From Quadrisphaera sp. RL12-1S (GTDB taxonomy: Bacteria > Actinomycetota > Actinomycetes > Actinomycetales > Quadrisphaeraceae), in contig NZ_JACNME010000001.1 of assembly GCF_014270065.1 (NCBI RefSeq), forward strand, positions 620,001 to 684,000: DNA of 64,000 bases, in the 5' to 3' direction. The number at the start of each line of letters is the position of its first letter. Within the stretch, counting starts at the first letter, position 1. A model generated the notes under the pieces. That model was not told the DNA's origin. It searched no databases and was given only the letters and a program-made list of their open reading frames with translations. Both the position numbers and the translations under genes were made by a program. Below are positions 11,516 through 19,695 of the stretch, piece by piece.

Positions 11516-12184
11516 TCAGCGGCGCATGACGGCGCGCGCCAGCCGGTTGCCGAGGAGCTGCCCCAGCACGACGATCGCGACGATGGCCACCAGGGCGGCG
11601 TAGACGATGCCCCAGTCGTACTGCTGCGAGCCGTAGGAGATCGCATAGTCCCCCAAGCCGCCGCCACCGACGAGACCGGCCTGGGCCGACATGTCGACGA
11701 TCCCCACGAAGATGAAGGTGTAGCCCAGGACCAGCGGCCCGAGGCCCTCCCGGACCACCACGCCGAAGAGGATCGCGCTGCGCGAGGCCCCCATCGAGCG
11801 CGCCGCCTCCACGACGCCCGGGTCCACGCCCACGAGCGACTGCTCGACGATCCGCGCGACGGCGAAGCCCGCGGCCAGCGCGATGGCGAAGGTCACGGCG
11901 CCCGTGCCCAGCGTCGTGCCGACCACGAGCCGCTGCAGCGGTCCGACGGCCAGCAGGAAGATGACGAAGGGGATGGGCCTGATGATGTTGACCAGGAGGC
12001 CGATGACGGCGAAGACGAGGCGGTTGCTGAAGAGGTTGCCGGGGCGGGTGGCGTACAGCGCCACCCCGAGCACCAGCCCGACGACCCCCGACACGGCCAT
12101 GGCCACGCTGACGATGAGCAGCGTCTGCCCGATGGCCCTGACGTAGACGTCCGTGCTGTCGAGGAAGCCCGCGAAGAAGTCCAC
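11516..12184 (-). CDS. metI: Methionine ABC transporter permease
   Basis: A 222-residue MetI-type permease with five to six membrane segments and the EAA loop around EAARSMGASRSAILFGVVVREGLGPL, which docks on the ATPase. The GTG start lies one base after the metN stop (12186), giving tight coupling. Ends the metQ-metN-metI transcript, which begins behind a SAM-sensing riboswitch. Imports methionine (D or L, possibly its sulfoxides). Confidence 0.93.
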   Translation of the reverse strand: MDFFAGFLDSTDVYVRAIGQTLLIVSVAMAVSGVVGLVLGVALYATRPGNLFSNRLVFAVIGLLVNIIRPIPFVIFLLAVGPLQRLVVGTTLGTGAVTFAIALAAGFAVARIVEQSLVGVDPGVVEAARSMGASRSAILFGVVVREGLGPLVLGYTFIFVGIVDMSAQAGLVGGGGLGDYAISYGSQQYDWGIVYAALVAIVAIVVLGQLLGNRLARAVMRR

Positions 12185-12185
12185 C

Positions 12186-13262
12186 TCAGTCCTCCTCGTC
12201 CACGACGACGTCGCGCCCGCGCAGCGCGGCCAGGGCCCGCCGCACGGCGTCGTCGTCGCCCGTCAGCTCGTAGGTGAGGGAGCCGGCGCGGCGCTCGCGC
12301 ACCTCACCGACCCCGCCGAAGACCAGCTCCGCGACCACGCCGGCGTCGCGGAACGCGCCGTCGACCAGCTGCTGCAGGCCGGGACGGTCCGTGATGCGCA
12401 CGGTGACGAGCCGACCGGGGTGGTGCTCGCGCAGCCGGGCGAGGGCCTCGCGCGAGGGCCGGTCGTGGGTGGCGGAGCGCACGAAGCGCTGCGCGGCAGG
12501 GGTCTTCGGGGCGGTGAAGACGTCGTAGACGTCCCCCACCTCCACCACGCGACCGCCCTCCATGACCGCCACCCGGTCGGCCACGCGGCGCACGGCCTCC
12601 ATCTCGTGCGTGATGAGCACGATGGTCACGCCCAGCTCGGTGTTCACCCGCCGCAGCAGGGTGAGCACCTCCTCGGTGGTCTCCGGGTCCAGGGCGCTGG
12701 TGGCCTCGTCGGCCAGGAGCAGCGGCGGGCTGGTGGCCAGCGCCCTGGCGATGCCCACGCGCTGCTTCTGCCCTCCGGAGAGCTGCTCGGGGTGCGCGTG
12801 CGCGCGCTCGAGCAGCCCGACGAAGTCGAGCAGCTCGGCAGTGCGCCTCTCGCGCTCGGCCTTGGCGACCCCGGCCACCTTCAGCGGGTACGCCACGTTG
12901 CCGGCCACGGTGCGCGAGCTCAGCAGGTTGAACTGCTGGAAGATCATCCCGATGCCGGCGCGGGCTGCGCGCAGCTCCTTCTCGCCCAGGCGCGTGAGGT
13001 CCTGGCCCGCCACGCGCACGCTGCCGGAGGTCGGCTGCTCCAGGGCGTTGACCAGGCGCACGAGCGTGGACTTGCCGGCGCCGGAGTAGCCGATGACGGC
13101 GAGCACCTCCCCGCGCGCGACGGTGAGGCTGACGCCGTCGACGGCGGTGACGGTGCTGCCGCCGCGGTCGAAGCGCTTGGTGACGCCCTCGAGCTCGACG
13201 AGGGCGTCACCGGAGATCCGGGACCCGGAGGGTGCCGGCGAGGCGGTGGACGAGGCGGACAC
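12186..13262 (-). CDS. metN: Methionine ABC transporter ATP-binding protein
   Basis: A 358-residue ABC ATPase with Walker A GYSGAGKST (residues 58-66), signature LSGGQKQR and Walker B LLLADEATSALD in the first 240 residues, then a C-terminal NIL regulatory domain (the stretch after RPSREALARLREHHPGRLVTV) that in MetN binds methionine and inhibits transport when the cell is replete. An about 18-residue Ser/Pro/Ala-rich leader precedes the usual start of the domain. GTG start; only two bases separate it from the metQ stop. Confidence 0.95.
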   Translation of the reverse strand: MSASSTASPAPSGSRISGDALVELEGVTKRFDRGGSTVTAVDGVSLTVARGEVLAVIGYSGAGKSTLVRLVNALEQPTSGSVRVAGQDLTRLGEKELRAARAGIGMIFQQFNLLSSRTVAGNVAYPLKVAGVAKAERERRTAELLDFVGLLERAHAHPEQLSGGQKQRVGIARALATSPPLLLADEATSALDPETTEEVLTLLRRVNTELGVTIVLITHEMEAVRRVADRVAVMEGGRVVEVGDVYDVFTAPKTPAAQRFVRSATHDRPSREALARLREHHPGRLVTVRITDRPGLQQLVDGAFRDAGVVAELVFGGVGEVRERRAGSLTYELTGDDDAVRRALAALRGRDVVVDEED

Positions 13263-13264
13263 GG

Positions 13265-14269
13265 TCAGCCGGCGGCCTTCGCGGCCTTCGCGTCCTGCTC
13301 GACCTTGGCGAGGTCGGCCTGGAGGTCGGCCGCGGACTTGTCGACGACGACGGCGCTGGGGTAGTCCTTGGCGAACACGGCCTGGACGGCCGGGTCGTGC
13401 CAGAGCTTCGCGAGCGCCAGGTAGGTCTTGTCGTCCTTGTCGGCGGCACGCGTCACGAAGACGTTGACGTAGGGCGCCGCGGCGGCCGAGGCCGGGTCGT
13501 CGGCGACGATGATCTGGGCCTGCGTGAGACCGGCCTTGACGGCGTAGTTGTTGTTGACCACGGCGGCGGCGGCGGAGCCGCTCTGGAGCGCTCCGGCGGT
13601 CTGGTCGGCGGACACCGGCGTCACCTTGACCTTCGAGCTGGTGATGTCGTCGGTGGTGGAGAACGCCGAGCCGCCGCCCTCGAGCTGCACCAGACCGGCC
13701 TGCTGGAGCAGGAGCAGGGCGCGGGCCTCGTTGATGGCGTCGTTGGGGATGGCCACCACGGCGTCGGCGGGCAGGGAGGCCGCGTCCTTGACGGACGTGG
13801 AGTACAGCGGCAGCGGGTAGACGGCGGTGGCGCCGATGGGCTCGAGGTCGTCACCGGAGGTGACGTCGTAGTTGGCCAGGTACTGGATGTGCTGGAACTG
13901 GTTGAGGTCGGTCTCGCCCTGGACCAGCGCCGGGTTGGGCAGGCTGTAGTCCGAGAAGTTGACCAGGTCCACCGTGACGCCCAGCTGGCTCTTCGCCAGC
14001 TCGGTGTAGGTCTTCCAGTACGGCAGGGAGCTGTCGGAGACGCCGATCTTCACCTCGGGCTTGTAGCCCTGGCTGGAGGCGGTGCCGCTGGCGGCGGCAG
14101 CGCCGCCGCCACCACCGCTGCGGCTGCCCAGCAGCCACGCGCCGCCGCCGACCACCACGAGGAGCAGGACGACGGCCACGACGACCGCGACCACCGGCAC
14201 GCTGCGCTTCGGCTTGGGGGGCAGGACGGGGCCGCCGCTGGGCGTGGCGCTGGGGTCGGTGCTGGACAT
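13265..14269 (-). CDS. metQ: Methionine-binding protein with an N-terminal membrane anchor instead of a lipobox
   Basis: About 334 residues from ATG 14269 (MSSTDPSATPSGGPVLPPKPKRS), which has a GGGAG ribosome-binding site. Residues 24-48 form a single hydrophobic segment (VPVVAVVVAVVLLLVVVGG) followed by a Ser/Gly/Ala-rich spacer; no cysteine is present there, so the protein is not a lipoprotein, unlike most MetQ. From KPEVKIGVSDS onward it is a normal NlpA/MetQ solute-binding domain (FSDYSLPNPALVQGETDLNQFQH). It feeds MetNI. The longer frame to 14350 lacks support. Confidence 0.9.
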   Translation of the reverse strand: MSSTDPSATPSGGPVLPPKPKRSVPVVAVVVAVVLLLVVVGGGAWLLGSRSGGGGGAAAASGTASSQGYKPEVKIGVSDSSLPYWKTYTELAKSQLGVTVDLVNFSDYSLPNPALVQGETDLNQFQHIQYLANYDVTSGDDLEPIGATAVYPLPLYSTSVKDAASLPADAVVAIPNDAINEARALLLLQQAGLVQLEGGGSAFSTTDDITSSKVKVTPVSADQTAGALQSGSAAAAVVNNNYAVKAGLTQAQIIVADDPASAAAAPYVNVFVTRAADKDDKTYLALAKLWHDPAVQAVFAKDYPSAVVVDKSAADLQADLAKVEQDAKAAKAAG

Positions 14270-14726: not shown

Positions 14727-15671
14727 ATGACCACGCTGGTCGATCACGGCGCCGCGCTGTCGGTGCAGCTGTCGTCTGGGGAGGGCGCCCTGTGGGCGCG
14801 CTGCGCGGACTTCACCCTCGGCGGGCTCGCCGCCGACGCCGGGGCCAGCTTCGAGATGTGGGGCGTCGCGCGGGTCGTGGCGGGCGGGTGGACCGCGCTC
14901 GCCGGCAGCGGCGACGTCGTCGCGGCGGTGGGCACCGAGCACCCCTGGCAGGACACGCTGTGCGCCTCCCTGCAGCGGGGCCCCGAGGCGGCCCTCGCCG
15001 GGGACCTGCGCCGGCGCCGCGACCCCGAGCTGCGCGCCAAGGCCGAGCGCTTGGGCGTGCGCGCCTACGTCGGCGCGCCGCTGCTCGACGGGGGCCGGGT
15101 GGTCGGCAGCCTGTGCGGCTGGTCCCGCACGCCCGCCACCGACGACGACGCGCTGCGGGCGCGCGTCACCCGCAACGCCGCCTTCCTCGGCACCACCCTG
15201 GGCCGGGAGCTGCACCGCACGGGCCAGGAGCGCGAGCAGGACTGGGCCTCCCGCCCCGCCAGCCGCGACCACCTGACCCGCCTGCCCGACCGCCGCTCGT
15301 GGGGGGCGCTCCTGCAGCGCGAGGACGACCGGGCCCGCGGCCTCGCCGAGCCCGCCGCGGTGACCGTGGTGGACGTCGGCACGGTGAGCTCCACCCGGGC
15401 GCTGCGGCGCCTCGCGGGCGCGCTGGCCGAGGCCGCGGGGCCCGCCGGGGTGGTGGCCCGCACCGGGGCGCGCCAGTTCGGCGTCCTGTCCACCAGCGCC
15501 GGCGAGCAGGGGCCGCTGGCGGTCTCGGCGCGGGTGGTCGAGCAGCTCCGCACCGCCGCCCCGCAGGTGCGGGCCGGCAGCGCGGTCCGCCACGGCCAGG
15601 CGGCGCTGGCGGACGTGTGGGTGGCCGCCGAGGACGACCTGCTGTCCGCGCGGCACCGGGACGCCCGGTGA
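14727..15671 (+). CDS. GAF-domain protein with degenerate GGDEF-like C-terminus
   Basis: A 314-residue soluble protein. Residues 20-170 look like a GAF sensor domain (ARVVAGGWTALAGSG..., then VRAYVGAPLLDGGRVVGSLCGWSRTP). Then SRDHLTRLPDRRSWGALL recalls the N-terminal D-LT-LPNR helix of GGDEF domains, but the catalytic loop is replaced by ARTGARQFGVL, so cyclic-di-GMP synthesis is very unlikely. The ATG has a strong GGGGAGGG ribosome-binding site. It is the first gene of the exosortase operon and overlaps it by 4 bases (GTGA); it may sense or regulate that system, which is inference. Confidence 0.7.
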   Translation: MTTLVDHGAALSVQLSSGEGALWARCADFTLGGLAADAGASFEMWGVARVVAGGWTALAGSGDVVAAVGTEHPWQDTLCASLQRGPEAALAGDLRRRRDPELRAKAERLGVRAYVGAPLLDGGRVVGSLCGWSRTPATDDDALRARVTRNAAFLGTTLGRELHRTGQEREQDWASRPASRDHLTRLPDRRSWGALLQREDDRARGLAEPAAVTVVDVGTVSSTRALRRLAGALAEAAGPAGVVARTGARQFGVLSTSAGEQGPLAVSARVVEQLRTAAPQVRAGSAVRHGQAALADVWVAAEDDLLSARHRDAR

Positions 15672-16243
15672 GCACCCCCACCGCGGCCGAGCCCGGTCCG
15701 CTGGCGGACCTCGCCCCGGACCCCGACCTCGACCTCGGCCTGGCACGCCCCGCCGTCGCCGTCGCGGCGCTCGCGGCCGTCGCCGCCGTGGTGGGCGGCG
15801 GCGGCTGGCTGCGGCTCGCGGAGGCCAGCGCCTCCGCGCTCGTGGCGCGCGCCGTGGGCACCCACGACGTGCAGCGCGTCGGCACGGCCGTGACGTTCGA
15901 CCTGGACGGCCGCGCCGTCGGCTACAGCATCACCCTGGGCTGCACCGTCGCGTTCCTCCTGGTGCCGTTCCTGCTGGCGGCCGGCGCCGTGCTCACGCTC
16001 CAGCGCGCCTCCGCGCCCCGCACGCTGACCGCCCTCGCCGTCGCCGTCGCCGTCGTCGCCCTCACCAACCAGGTGCGGCTGCTGGTCATCCTGACCGGGA
16101 TCCGCGCGCTCGGGCTGGAGCGCGGCTACTCCGCCACGCACGTGCTGGTCGGCACCACGATCAGCACCGTCGGCGTGGTGAGCGCCGCTCTGCTCTTCCT
16201 GGCCCTGGTCACCCGCGGCGCCCGGGGCGTGCGCCGTGGATGA
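15668..16243 (+). CDS. Small exosortase/archaeosortase-family transpeptidase (Xrt-like)
   Basis: A 191-residue polytopic membrane protein of four or five segments. It carries the layout of the exosortase active site: Cys92 in GCTVAF, Arg137 in TNQVRLLVILTGIRAL (with Asn134) and His158 in YSATHVLVGTTIS. Exosortases cut a C-terminal tripartite signal on secreted proteins and anchor them on the outer surface. The GTG start overlaps the previous stop (GTGA) and the gene overlaps the next by 8 bases. It is followed by a glycosyltransferase and a secreted protein with a C-terminal hydrophobic-Arg-Arg tail, its probable substrate. Family call is from motif pattern and neighbourhood; no LPXTG sortase is nearby. 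Confidence 0.78.
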   Translation: MSTPTAAEPGPLADLAPDPDLDLGLARPAVAVAALAAVAAVVGGGGWLRLAEASASALVARAVGTHDVQRVGTAVTFDLDGRAVGYSITLGCTVAFLLVPFLLAAGAVLTLQRASAPRTLTALAVAVAVVALTNQVRLLVILTGIRALGLERGYSATHVLVGTTISTVGVVSAALLFLALVTRGARGVRRG

Positions 16244-17690
16244 CCCCCGCTCCTGGCTCGCGCTCCTCAACACCGCCGCGTTCCTGCTGTGCGTGGCCTT
16301 CCTCGCCTACGTCGGGCTCATCACCCACCGCTTCGCGCGGCGGGGCACCCACCTCCCCGCGGCGCGCGCCGACCACGCCTTCCACCTCGTGGTCCCCTGC
16401 CTGGACGAGGAGGACGTGGTCACCGGCACCGTCGAGCACCTCGTGACGACCTTCCCCGACGCGGTCGTGTGGTGCGTCGACGACGCCTCCGCCGACGCCA
16501 CCGGGGAGCTGCTCGCCCAGCTCGCCCGCACCCACCCCCGGGTCCGCGTGGTCACCCGGCGCCTCCCCGAGGCTCGCCAGGGCAAGGGCGCCGCGCTCAA
16601 CGCCGCGTGGCGCGCCATCGACGCCTCGCTCGGCGCCGGCGCGGACCGGACGCGCGTGGTGGTGGGGGTGGTGGACGCGGATGCCCGCCTCGACCGCTCG
16701 TGCCTGGCCACCGTGTGCGGCCCCACGCTCTTCGGTGACCCCTCCGTCTCGGCGGTGCAGGTGCTGGTGCGCGTGGTCGAGGACGTCGACGCGCTGACGA
16801 GCACCTGCCCGCTGCGCCTGGTGACCGCCCGCGCGCCCGGCGACGACCCGCTGCTGGTGCAGCTGCAGGACCTGGAGTTCTCGGGCCCCATCGCGGCCAT
16901 GCAGACCCTGCGCCGCACCACCGGCAGCGTGGGCATGGGCGGCAACGGCCAGTTCACGCGGCTGTCAGCGCTGGACCGGATCGCCGCCGAGCACGACGTG
17001 CCCTGGCACGGCTCCCTGCTGGAGGACTTCGAGCTGGGACTGCACGTGCTGCTCACCGGCGGGCGCACCGAGTACTGCGGTGACGCGTTCGTGGCCCAGA
17101 CCGGGCTGCGGACCGTCAAGCCGCTGCTGCGCCAGCGCAGCCGGTGGGCCCAGGGCGGGATGCAGTGCGCCAGGTACTGGTGGCAGGTGGTCACCTCGCC
17201 GCACGTCCCGCTGACCGCGGCGCTCGAGATCACCTACTACCTGTCGGTGCCGTGGACCCAGCTGGTCGGCGCCCTGGTGTTCCCCGCGGCGATCGCCGTG
17301 GACGTGCACTACGCGCTGGCCACGGCCGGAGGACCCGCCGGCTGGTGGCTCAGCGGCGCCTGGGGGCTGCTGCCGCTGGCCGTCCTCTTCGGCCTCGTGC
17401 CGCACGTCATGTGGGGCCCGCTGTACCGGGAGGCCACCGGCGGGCACGTCACGCGGCGCCGCGCGGCGCTGCTCTCGGTGGCCAACGCGGCGTACGCCTA
17501 CCTGCTGCAGGTGGCCGTGTGGTGGGCCTTCTGGCGCACCCTGCGCGGGCGCACCGACTGGAAGAAGACGGCGCGGCGCACCGGGCCGCCCGCCGCACCG
17601 GTGGCGCCCGCGGCGAGGACAGCCCTCCCCCGCCCCCGGACCCCCGAGAGCACCGAGAGCACCGAGAGCACGGCAGGAGGCCAGCGATGA
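16236..17690 (+). CDS. Membrane-bound processive family 2 glycosyltransferase
   Basis: A 484-residue enzyme of cellulose-synthase/hyaluronan-synthase type. One N-terminal membrane helix, then a GT-A domain with VVPCLDEED, WCVDDASAD and VVDADAR (DxD, metal/UDP-sugar binding), LEDFELG with the catalytic base, and QRSRWAQGG (QxxRW, processivity). Three to four C-terminal membrane helices follow (residues about 325-440). The tail holds an EST-EST-EST repeat encoded by 9 bp tandem units at 17647-17672. Start GTG 16236 overlaps the exosortase gene by 8 bases. It may build the glycan carried by, or co-displayed with, the adjacent sorted protein. Confidence 0.88.
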   Translation: MDDPRSWLALLNTAAFLLCVAFLAYVGLITHRFARRGTHLPAARADHAFHLVVPCLDEEDVVTGTVEHLVTTFPDAVVWCVDDASADATGELLAQLARTHPRVRVVTRRLPEARQGKGAALNAAWRAIDASLGAGADRTRVVVGVVDADARLDRSCLATVCGPTLFGDPSVSAVQVLVRVVEDVDALTSTCPLRLVTARAPGDDPLLVQLQDLEFSGPIAAMQTLRRTTGSVGMGGNGQFTRLSALDRIAAEHDVPWHGSLLEDFELGLHVLLTGGRTEYCGDAFVAQTGLRTVKPLLRQRSRWAQGGMQCARYWWQVVTSPHVPLTAALEITYYLSVPWTQLVGALVFPAAIAVDVHYALATAGGPAGWWLSGAWGLLPLAVLFGLVPHVMWGPLYREATGGHVTRRRAALLSVANAAYAYLLQVAVWWAFWRTLRGRTDWKKTARRTGPPAAPVAPAARTALPRPRTPESTESTESTAGGQR

Positions 17691-18511
17691 GCACCACCGG
17701 CTGGAGGAGGACGACGGCGGGGACCGCACTGCTGGCCGCTGCCCTGGTGGCGGTGCCGGTGGGCGCGGCCCGGGCCGACACGTCCACCGCCTCCGCGAGC
17801 CCGCTGTCGGTGACCACGGCGGTGGGGGCGACCGTCTCCGCGGCGTCGGCGTCCGCGTCCAGCGACGGCACCTCCGACGACCGGGGAAGCGTTCCCGCCG
17901 GCGTGCTGGGCGGGCAGGGCGTGGTCACGGCCGGGGTGGCCGTGGCCGACGTGCGCGCCTTCGCCACCGGCCTGTCCGGGTCCTGCGCGGGGCTGGTCGG
18001 CAGCGGAGGCTCCGTGGTGGTCGGCCCGGGCGGTGCGTGCGCGGTGAGCGCCGGGAGCGGCGGCGTGCGGGTCGCCCTGACCTCGACGCTGGTGCTGACC
18101 GCCGACGCGATCGTCTCCAGCTGCACCGCCAGCAGCACCGGCACGTCCACCACGAGGACGACCGTGGTCGGCGGCCAGCTCACCGGCCCCCTCGGCGCGA
18201 CCGCCGCCGTGGGCGCCGGCACCAGCGGCACCCTGCTCGGGCTGGTCTCCGTCAGCACCGGCTCCACCGGCACCCAGGCGACGGCCGGACCGGTGTCCAC
18301 GACCGCGCTGCAGCTGGGCCTGCTCTCGGGCACCACCGCGGTGCGCGTGGGGGCCGTCACGTGCGGCCGCAACGCGGTCGTCGTCCCGACCCCCGCGGTG
18401 CCCGCGGAGGGGCTGCCCATCGCCCTGGCCGGTGGTGCCGTCGTCGCGGGGGCCGTCCGCCGGGCCCTGCGCCAGGCGCGGACCGCCCCGACCCCCGGAG
18501 GACCCGCGTGA
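17687..18511 (+). CDS. Secreted surface protein, probable exosortase cargo (choice-of-anchor-P-like)
   Basis: A 274-residue protein very rich in Ser/Thr/Gly/Ala/Val. N-terminal signal peptide (WRRTTAGTALLAAALVAVPVGAARA, cut near residue 30). The middle is a beta-rich repetitive domain with three Cys-containing stretches (GSCAGLVG, GACAVSAG, SSCTAS) and ends TALQLGLLSGTTAVRVGAVTCG. The C-terminus has a Pro-rich linker (VVVPTPAVPAEG), a 15-residue hydrophobic stretch (LPIALAGGAVVAGAV) and basic RRALRQAR, i.e. a tripartite sorting-type tail without LPXTG. ATGA overlap with the glycosyltransferase gene and GTGA overlap with the next gene. Proposed substrate of the neighbouring exosortase; this is inferred from the tail and gene order. 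Confidence 0.72.
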   Translation: MSTTGWRRTTAGTALLAAALVAVPVGAARADTSTASASPLSVTTAVGATVSAASASASSDGTSDDRGSVPAGVLGGQGVVTAGVAVADVRAFATGLSGSCAGLVGSGGSVVVGPGGACAVSAGSGGVRVALTSTLVLTADAIVSSCTASSTGTSTTRTTVVGGQLTGPLGATAAVGAGTSGTLLGLVSVSTGSTGTQATAGPVSTTALQLGLLSGTTAVRVGAVTCGRNAVVVPTPAVPAEGLPIALAGGAVVAGAVRRALRQARTAPTPGGPA

Positions 18512-19695
18512 CCCCGCAGACCGTCGCCGTCGTCATGGGCACCCGACCGGAGATCATCAAGATGGCGCCGGTGGTCCACGAGCTCACCGCCCGCGGTGCG
18601 CGGGCCCGGACCCTGCTCACGGGCCAGCACTACGACAGGGCCCTCGCCGGCTCGTTCGTGGAGGCCTGCGGGCTCACCGACGTCGCGGCGCCCGCCGCCG
18701 AGCTGGCCGGGCTCGCCCGCGGGGAGCAGGTGGCCGCGATGGTCGTGGGCCTGAGCGCCCAGCTGCGCGAGCTCGCGCCCTCCGCCGTCCTGGTCCAGGG
18801 AGACACCAACAGCGCCAACGCCGGGGCCCAGGCCGCGCACTACCTGGGGCTGCCGGTCGTGCACGTGGAGGCCGGGCTGCGCTCCGGCGACCGCGGGATG
18901 CCCGAGGAGGTCAACCGCCTGCTCATCGGTGCCCTCGCCGACGTCCACTGCGCCCCCACCGCCGCCAGCGCCGCGAACCTGCTGCGAGCCGGCGCCGACC
19001 CGCACGCGGTGCACGTGACCGGCAACCCGGTGGTGGAGGCGGTGCGCGCCTCGCTGCGCGCTCCTGACGGCCCGGCGGCGGCCCAGGAGGTGCTGCGCCG
19101 GGCGGGGCTCGAGCACCACGACGTCGTGCTGGCGACCGTGCACCGCGCGGAGAACACCGACGACCCGGCCGCCCTGGCCGCGCTGCTCGCCGCGCTGGGA
19201 GACCTGCCGGCGCCCGTGGTGCTGCCCGCCCACCCCCGCACCTCCGCGCGGATCACCGCGTGGGGCGTCCCGGTGCCCGCGTCGGTGCACCTGGTCGAGC
19301 CCGTCGACCACGCGGCGTTCCTGGCGCTGGCCGAGCGGGCGGTGCTCGTGGTGTCGGACTCCGGCGGCCTCCAGGAGGAGGTGACCGTGCTGCGCCGGCC
19401 CATGGTGGTGGTGCGCTCCACCACCGAGCGCCCGGAGAGCGTGGACGCCGGGTTCTGCCGCCTGTCCAGCCCCGCCGGCGTCGCCCGGGCCGCGGCCGAG
19501 CTGCTGCGGCCGGAGCACCTCGCCCGGCTGGCCACCGCCCCGAGCCCGTACGGCGACGGGCGGGCGAGCGAGCGCATCGCCGACCTCGCGCTGGGCACCA
19601 CCGGTCCGCTCGCCGGCCCGCTGCGCCCCTTCGAGGAGCTGCTCCTCGCAGCGGGTGGCCGCCCCGGCGGTGCGGAGCAGCCGCAGCGCCGCTGA
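18508..19695 (+). CDS. wecB: UDP-N-acetylglucosamine 2-epimerase (non-hydrolysing)
   Basis: A 395-residue GT-B-fold epimerase making UDP-ManNAc from UDP-GlcNAc. Diagnostic blocks: MGTRPEIIKMAPV at the N-terminus, QGDTNSA, HVEAGLRSGDRGMPEEVNR, TVHRAENTD and VSDSGGLQEEV (active-site and UDP-binding residues). GTG start within a GTGA overlap with the cargo gene; last gene of the five-gene operon, followed at once by a perfect hairpin. Placement beside a processive glycosyltransferase suggests that ManNAc or a derivative is used in the operon's glycan. Confidence 0.93.
   Translation: MTPQTVAVVMGTRPEIIKMAPVVHELTARGARARTLLTGQHYDRALAGSFVEACGLTDVAAPAAELAGLARGEQVAAMVVGLSAQLRELAPSAVLVQGDTNSANAGAQAAHYLGLPVVHVEAGLRSGDRGMPEEVNRLLIGALADVHCAPTAASAANLLRAGADPHAVHVTGNPVVEAVRASLRAPDGPAAAQEVLRRAGLEHHDVVLATVHRAENTDDPAALAALLAALGDLPAPVVLPAHPRTSARITAWGVPVPASVHLVEPVDHAAFLALAERAVLVVSDSGGLQEEVTVLRRPMVVVRSTTERPESVDAGFCRLSSPAGVARAAAELLRPEHLARLATAPSPYGDGRASERIADLALGTTGPLAGPLRPFEELLLAAGGRPGGAEQPQRR

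Follow-up and report, generated by a model that had tools for sequence, protein, structure and literature searches.

A probable one-substrate exosortase module with its own glycosyltransferase and UDP-GlcNAc 2-epimerase in Quadrisphaera sp. RL12-1S

Five overlapping genes of Quadrisphaera sp. RL12-1S probably form a one-substrate surface-protein sorting module, which is a divergent variant of the XrtP/CoaP/XrtP-associated glycosyltransferase set and in which a glycosyltransferase and an epimerase would make the acceptor or a partner glycan. The genes occupy positions 14727-19695 of a 64,000-nt stretch of contig NZ_JACNME010000001.1; the whole stretch is called the window here, positions are window coordinates and all features are on the + strand. 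In order, they encode a protein with GAF and degenerate GGDEF domains, a small exosortase (Xrt), a membrane glycosyltransferase of family GT2, a secreted cargo protein and a WecB-type non-hydrolysing UDP-N-acetylglucosamine (UDP-GlcNAc) 2-epimerase. The unit had been noticed in an earlier reading of the DNA without database searches (the sequence-only reading), whose observation was confirmed and whose interpretation, a sorting system for a single substrate linked to a glycan containing N-acetylmannosamine (ManNAc), was partly supported.

The exosortase gene (15668..16243, 191 residues) matched TIGR04178, the exosortase/archaeosortase signature of NCBIfam, with 29.9 bits (cut-off 23). The same signature matched 12/12 Xrts of an alignment at E up to 1 and gave scores of 23.7-39.7 for 13 Xrt relatives scanned one by one. 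Cys, Arg and His are the conserved residues of the exosortase/archaeosortase superfamily, and Cys92 (codon 15941..15943, the proposed nucleophile), Arg137 (16076..16078) and His158 (16139..16141) were invariant in 12/12 and 14/14 aligned Xrts, the two alignments overlapping and both containing the window Xrt. In an AlphaFold2 model with a mean predicted local distance difference test score (pLDDT) of 86, helices were predicted at residues 27-43, 45-63, 94-111, 116-148 and 150-187, with a three-stranded part at 66-87. Cys92 was located at a helix start; the next helix contains Arg137, eleven residues short of its end, and the last contains His158, eight residues from its start, so that all three residues may sit at the outer face of the membrane. 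With the family signature passed, the three residues invariant and the predicted helix order compatible, the exosortase identity claimed by the sequence-only reading was upheld. The concern that 191 residues would be short for such an enzyme was not, because the NCBIfam models of XrtP, XrtR and XrtS have only 155-160 positions.

The scores of the window Xrt against the named families were 69.4 bits for exosortase P (NF012139, cut-off 200), 60.3 bits for exosortase R (NF012138, cut-off 150) and 58.9 bits for exosortase S (NF033767, cut-off 145). Of the 14 Xrts scanned one by one, none reached a P, R or S cut-off; the closest approach was that of locus L027, at 134 of 145 bits for S. The XrtP cut-off was not reached in any of the 345 genomes of the class, 10 of which gave a weaker match. 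Since none reaches the cut-offs, the sampled Xrt group lies outside the named families P, R and S, though near them. The prevalence was low: an Xrt was found in 14 of 248 genomes of the order by single-sequence search and in at least 17 of 396 genomes by profile search, and no Xrt relative was found on plasmids.

The cargo gene (17687..18511, 274 residues) encodes a signal peptide by inspection (17687..17776; hydrophobic stretch at residues 10-28, cleavage between A-R-A and D) and a C-terminal tail (18386..18508) that reads VPTPAVPAEG, a hydrophobic stretch and then RR. A helix was predicted at residues 243-265 with low to moderate confidence, and the remaining domain was predicted to be beta-rich (mean pLDDT 77). 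Neither an LPXTG-type motif in the tail nor a Pro-Glu-Pro (PEP-CTERM) motif before the helix was present, PTPAVPAEG standing at this place, so that the signal peptide, the Pro/hydrophobic/Arg-Arg tail and its departure from classical PEP-CTERM were all as the sequence-only reading had described them. Among 19 distinct cargo homologues, the window included, P239 was invariant, P234 was kept in 18, and P236 and G242 were each kept in 15; four cysteines (100, 118, 146 and 226) were kept in 19/19. No NCBIfam or Pfam match was found for the window cargo, and NF040603 and NF053845 gave no match to it even at E up to 1. The choice-of-anchor P model NF040603 (cut-off 27) was passed by the cargo homologues of L022, L036, L088 and L089, and the CoaP_CTERM model NF053845 (cut-off 35) by the tail of L088; the L039 cargo stayed under the NF040603 cut-off (23), and those of L034, L035 and L040 matched choice-of-anchor G only, below its cut-off. 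Because homologues pass NF040603, the window cargo is taken as a distant relative of the choice-of-anchor P proteins. When the genome was searched with a tail profile, the window cargo was the sole clear match (E 1.3e-16; the next 0.62), which supports the claim of one substrate.

Apart from the window, other arrangements of tail-bearing proteins were observed. Xrt and GT2 of L092 are followed by a tandem of three small proteins (L092:10759-13098) that share a similar IP-x-V-A-P-A-V-A/helix/basic tail, which is possibly a multi-substrate version. At three distant loci, a small protein that combines an LPFTG/LPVTG/LAATG-like motif with a helix is encoded beside the Xrt or GT2 gene (L089:3051-3389, L039:9736-9927 and L094:8442-8648).

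The tail was found to go together with the exosortase. Cargo-profile matches were present in at least 20 of 345 genomes of the class, and among 20 genomes with such a match, the three with an Xrt (G000, G498 and G534) all had the Pro-motif/helix/basic tail, which was found in 0 of the 17 genomes without a detected Xrt (Fisher p 0.0009, a value that is only a guide because the tails were typed by eye and related genomes were counted as independent). The 17 include three matches (G346, G502 and G408) that look like chance. In family f36, the cargo domain of five genomes without Xrt stops just past the last cysteine, and the sixth, G534, has both Xrt and tail. As to the other matches without Xrt, seven f45 genomes had a PTxVxAG-like tail and two genomes had LPXTG-type tails. 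Cargo homologues without a neighbouring Xrt, which the sequence-only reading had counted as evidence against itself, therefore do exist (17/20), but none of them has this type of tail. The f45 loci (L054, L055, L057-L060 and L063) encode homologous cargo-type domains in frames of 445-480 residues that end with basic residues after a PTxVxAG-like motif and a hydrophobic stretch, and these tails are possibly another sorting signal.

The two sugar genes flank the cargo gene. The GT2 protein (16236..17690, 484 residues) aligned with positions 3-438 of 440 of the XrtP-associated glycosyltransferase model NF053846 and scored 474.2 bits, below the cut-off of 520; its motifs are D82-D83, D147-A-D149, E263-D264 and Q300-R-S-R-W304. 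The epimerase (18508..19695, 395 residues) passed the WecB model TIGR00236 with 288 bits (cut-off 210) and was the sole PF02350 gene found in the genome. A PF03808 WecG/TagA-type transferase gave 0 matches in the window genome, and 2 of the 12 genomes searched have one. The component profiles were run over two sets of fetched stretches, 34 in the first and 9 in the second with L029 in both; the stretches of L106, L107, L109 and L110 were cut by contig ends. After duplicates and three loci without confirmed Xrt were removed, 36 distinct loci of the wider clade remained; L030, L031 and L032 are second copies of L016, L018 and L017, each counted once. Outside the window 28 Xrt hits (14+9+5) were obtained, and the 25 that were profile-confirmed gave, together with the window, 26 Xrt-found loci. 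The excluded hits were from G182 (L028, a 4-kb contig), G066 (L029) and G108 (L105), with initial E-values of 7.7e-4, 9.9e-4 and 2.2e-4, and no module component was found in these three stretches. The ten loci L033-L042 were found via GT2 and stand outside the adjacency test of 26. GT2 adjoined Xrt in 36/36 distinct loci and in 26/26 Xrt-found loci, the window included, and a WecB-type epimerase was encoded within the fetched stretch in 31/36 and 22/26, respectively. Within family f1, WecB was found in 4/4 Xrt-bearing vs 1/9 Xrt-lacking genomes (Fisher p 0.007, with related genomes treated as independent). In the same genus, G087 and G101, which have no detected Xrt, were also without WecB and without the specific GT2 (best 46-47 bits vs 474). 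As WecB and GT2 are absent along with Xrt there, the synthesis of UDP-ManNAc appears to be tied to the module in this genus, as an association.

The coordinates and the overlaps of 4, 8, 4 and 4 bases between successive genes were exactly as the sequence-only reading had them, and identical overlaps were seen again in the same-genus locus L016. Against the L016 copies (80-91% identical), the ratio of nonsynonymous to synonymous substitution rates (dN/dS) was 0.14-0.34 for all five genes, and so all five are regarded as real and constrained. The order regulator-Xrt-GT2-cargo-WecB, for which the sequence-only reading had proposed a search, was present at 13 distinct loci of three families (the window, L016-L023, L033, L034, L041 and L042), with two GAF genes in each cassette of L033, L034, L041 and L042. 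A search for an empty site led to G101, where the flanking MCP gene is present (70%) among neighbours that are otherwise unlike the window genes, and so it could not be shown that the cassette was gained or lost as one piece. Genome G176 has two cassettes, L019 and L021; the L019 Xrt groups with Geodermatophilaceae (97/92) and the L021 Xrt with its own family, and this suggests horizontal transfer. Beside the unit and divergently oriented to it, a gene for a protein of 917-936 residues was observed in three same-genus loci (L016:11035-13809, LuxR/AAA by Pfam in L016), in place of which metNIQ-like transporter genes were read in the window sequence at 11516-14269.

The first gene (14727..15671, 314 residues) opens the unit. 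Its GAF domain scored 24.7 bits (cut-off 22.4) and its GGDEF domain 23.9 bits (cut-off 23.8) in Pfam, and the NCBIfam GGDEF model gave 20.9 bits, below its cut-off of 37.4. The GG(D/E)EF motif of an active diguanylate cyclase was not present in the protein: the window motif is GARQF, the acidic position is Arg in 18/18 aligned homologues, and the residue after it is Gln in 15, Arg in 2 and His in 1. The degenerate motif makes a cyclase unlikely, and the product resembles a GAF protein whose cyclase domain is dead. Thus, the GAF/GGDEF-like regulator of the sequence-only reading stood as far as both domains lie just over the Pfam cut-offs, but its GGDEF motif is degenerate. The gene was found in 14/14 loci of one Xrt clade (support 94/97) and in 0/22 other loci scanned, in a tree without the six added loci L106-L111. 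A protein with EAL and GGDEF domains lies beside the cassette at L020:3914-5773 and L022:3193-6063, both of family f14, and a CHASE histidine kinase lies on the other side of the cassette at L023:11077-12924. Since the EAL and GGDEF protein adjoins the unit in two f14 loci, control by cyclic di-GMP is hinted at, and that the unit is under such control is our guess.

Exosortases and archaeosortases are described as probable transpeptidases acting on tripartite tails (PMC11980579), and for the archaeosortase ArtA the neighbouring pssA/pssD genes are reported to have pointed to the acceptor lipid (PMC7157517). By analogy with these ArtA neighbours, WecB and GT2 are most likely genes for the acceptor or a partner glycan. 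In the proposed mechanism, the signal peptide would export the cargo and the C-terminal helix would hold it in the membrane, where Xrt, with Cys92, Arg137 and His158 near the outer face, would cut at the Pro-rich motif just ahead of the helix and join the new C terminus of the cargo to the acceptor. WecB would produce UDP-ManNAc, and GT2 would use an N-acetylhexosamine (HexNAc) sugar nucleotide to make this acceptor, or a surface glycan with which the cargo associates. The cargo would then end glycan- or glycolipid-linked at the cell surface, and the GAF/degenerate-GGDEF protein would probably be a non-catalytic sensor that tunes the unit. A precedent for a sugar acceptor is the type IX system, in which amino-sugar "linking sugars" are reported to be joined to cargo C termini by an amide bond, the implicated sortase being PorU (PMC7468200). 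As a tentative proposal, the exosortase of this single-membrane Gram-positive bacterium may transfer its single dedicated surface protein to a ManNAc-containing glycolipid, made by its own operon from the only UDP-ManNAc source of the cell, and the unit may thus be a minimal kit that carries its own "linking sugar".

Several observations weigh against the reading as a sorting module with its own acceptor genes. The window Xrt is far under the XrtP, XrtR and XrtS cut-offs, and the Pro motif is not uniform, the tails of the f14 loci L020-L023 lacking P236 and G242 and having ALPGPA(L/A)P in place of the window motif. No epimerase was found in the stretch at L027, L035, L090, L108 and L111 (5/36), where Xrt and GT2 are present, so that WecB is not strictly needed nearby, and many epimerases beyond the core group are more distant (about 200-260 bits vs >500). 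The association tests treat related genomes as independent, and G157 of family f1 has WecB and no detected Xrt. WecB is also not unique in other Xrt-bearing genomes, with 2-3 copies in four f14 genomes and 2 in G129, and was present in 6 of 11 scanned Xrt-lacking genomes of the other families of the order. On plasmids, four distant GT2 matches were obtained and the surroundings of two were viewed: the L. fermentum relative (L103; 37% across one third of the query) has wecB in its vicinity and no exosortase annotated there, and near the Furfurilactobacillus match neither wecB nor an exosortase is annotated. For the link to a ManNAc glycan drawn by the sequence-only reading, the association of Xrt, GT2 and WecB across genomes stands in its favor and the five loci without WecB nearby stand against it; the ManNAc-containing glycan itself is something we infer.

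It is also conceivable, although somewhat unlikely, that the product of GT2 and WecB is a ManNAc/GlcNAc exopolysaccharide (EPS) distinct from the acceptor, which would then be an unrelated lipid to which Xrt attaches the cargo; binding of the polymer by the cargo would account for the co-regulation of the genes, as has been suggested for PEP-CTERM proteins and EPS. GT2 carries the D,D,ED,QxxRW set of processive synthases, which fits this explanation, as does the lack of a nearby WecB at the five loci. Moreover, PEP-CTERM proteins are described as stabilising surface EPS (PMC12188702). However, GT2 adjoined Xrt at every Xrt-found locus, and no other polysaccharide genes were found inside the five-gene unit. 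Quite improbable is O-glycosylation of the cargo by GT2 and WecB with Xrt merely anchoring it: the cargo has the high Ser and Thr content that this would call for, but GT2 is like lipid/polymer synthases (PgaC-like, 71 bits, below the cut-off), and at L024, L093 and L094 the tail-bearing neighbour is of another type, yet Xrt, GT2 and WecB remain together. That the Xrt homologue is no protease here and the cargo an ordinary C-terminally anchored membrane protein is scarcely credible, for although no activity is known and the XrtP, XrtR and XrtS scores are under the cut-offs, Cys, Arg and His are invariant in all 14 Xrts, the Pro ahead of the helix, needless for a plain anchor, is kept in every homologue, and the tail is missing where Xrt was not found.

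The sorting module preferred here is of a kind already catalogued in NCBIfam (XrtP, CoaP and the XrtP-associated glycosyltransferase), with XrtG as a parallel in Firmicutes, and the window unit is a divergent form of it that includes WecB and a degenerate GGDEF partner. The XrtP set (NF012139, NF040603, NF053845 and NF053846) has the same three parts: a small exosortase (model of 159 positions), an adjoining GT2 from the same family (474 of 520 bits) and a cargo that is distantly CoaP-like via its relatives. It differs in that the window Xrt reaches 69 of 200 bits, GT2 is slightly short of the cut-off and the cargo and tail are not recognized by NF040603 or NF053845; relative to these four NCBIfam models, the window unit also adds WecB and the GAF/degenerate-GGDEF gene. 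The XrtG/Firmicu-CTERM system of Lactiplantibacillus is likewise a Gram-positive unit and combines a single CTERM protein and a single exosortase with XrtG-associated glycosyltransferases (PMC12854382), but two glycosyltransferases and no WecB are listed for it there, and the window GT2 gave only 11 bits on the XrtG-associated model TIGR03111. The PEP-CTERM/EpsH systems share the short motif, helix and basic tail and the tie of an exosortase to polysaccharide genes (PMC12188702), whereas the window unit has no PEP motif, one clear substrate and five genes rather than an EPS cluster. Archaeosortase A of Haloferax, with PssA/PssD, is an enzyme of the same superfamily, and in Methanosarcina its gene is described as adjoining the acceptor-lipid gene pssA (PMC7157517); its partner genes are thought to make archaetidylethanolamine, in contrast to the sugar genes of the window. 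No description in print of an exosortase/GT2/epimerase module of the window type was found in the open-licence literature searched, judged mostly by title.

These results point to an actinobacterial exosortase group outside the named NCBIfam families P, R and S. The unit of Quadrisphaera sp. RL12-1S, which has a single protease, glycosyltransferase, epimerase and substrate and carries the only epimerase found in the genome, offers a simple setting for finding the acceptor of an exosortase.

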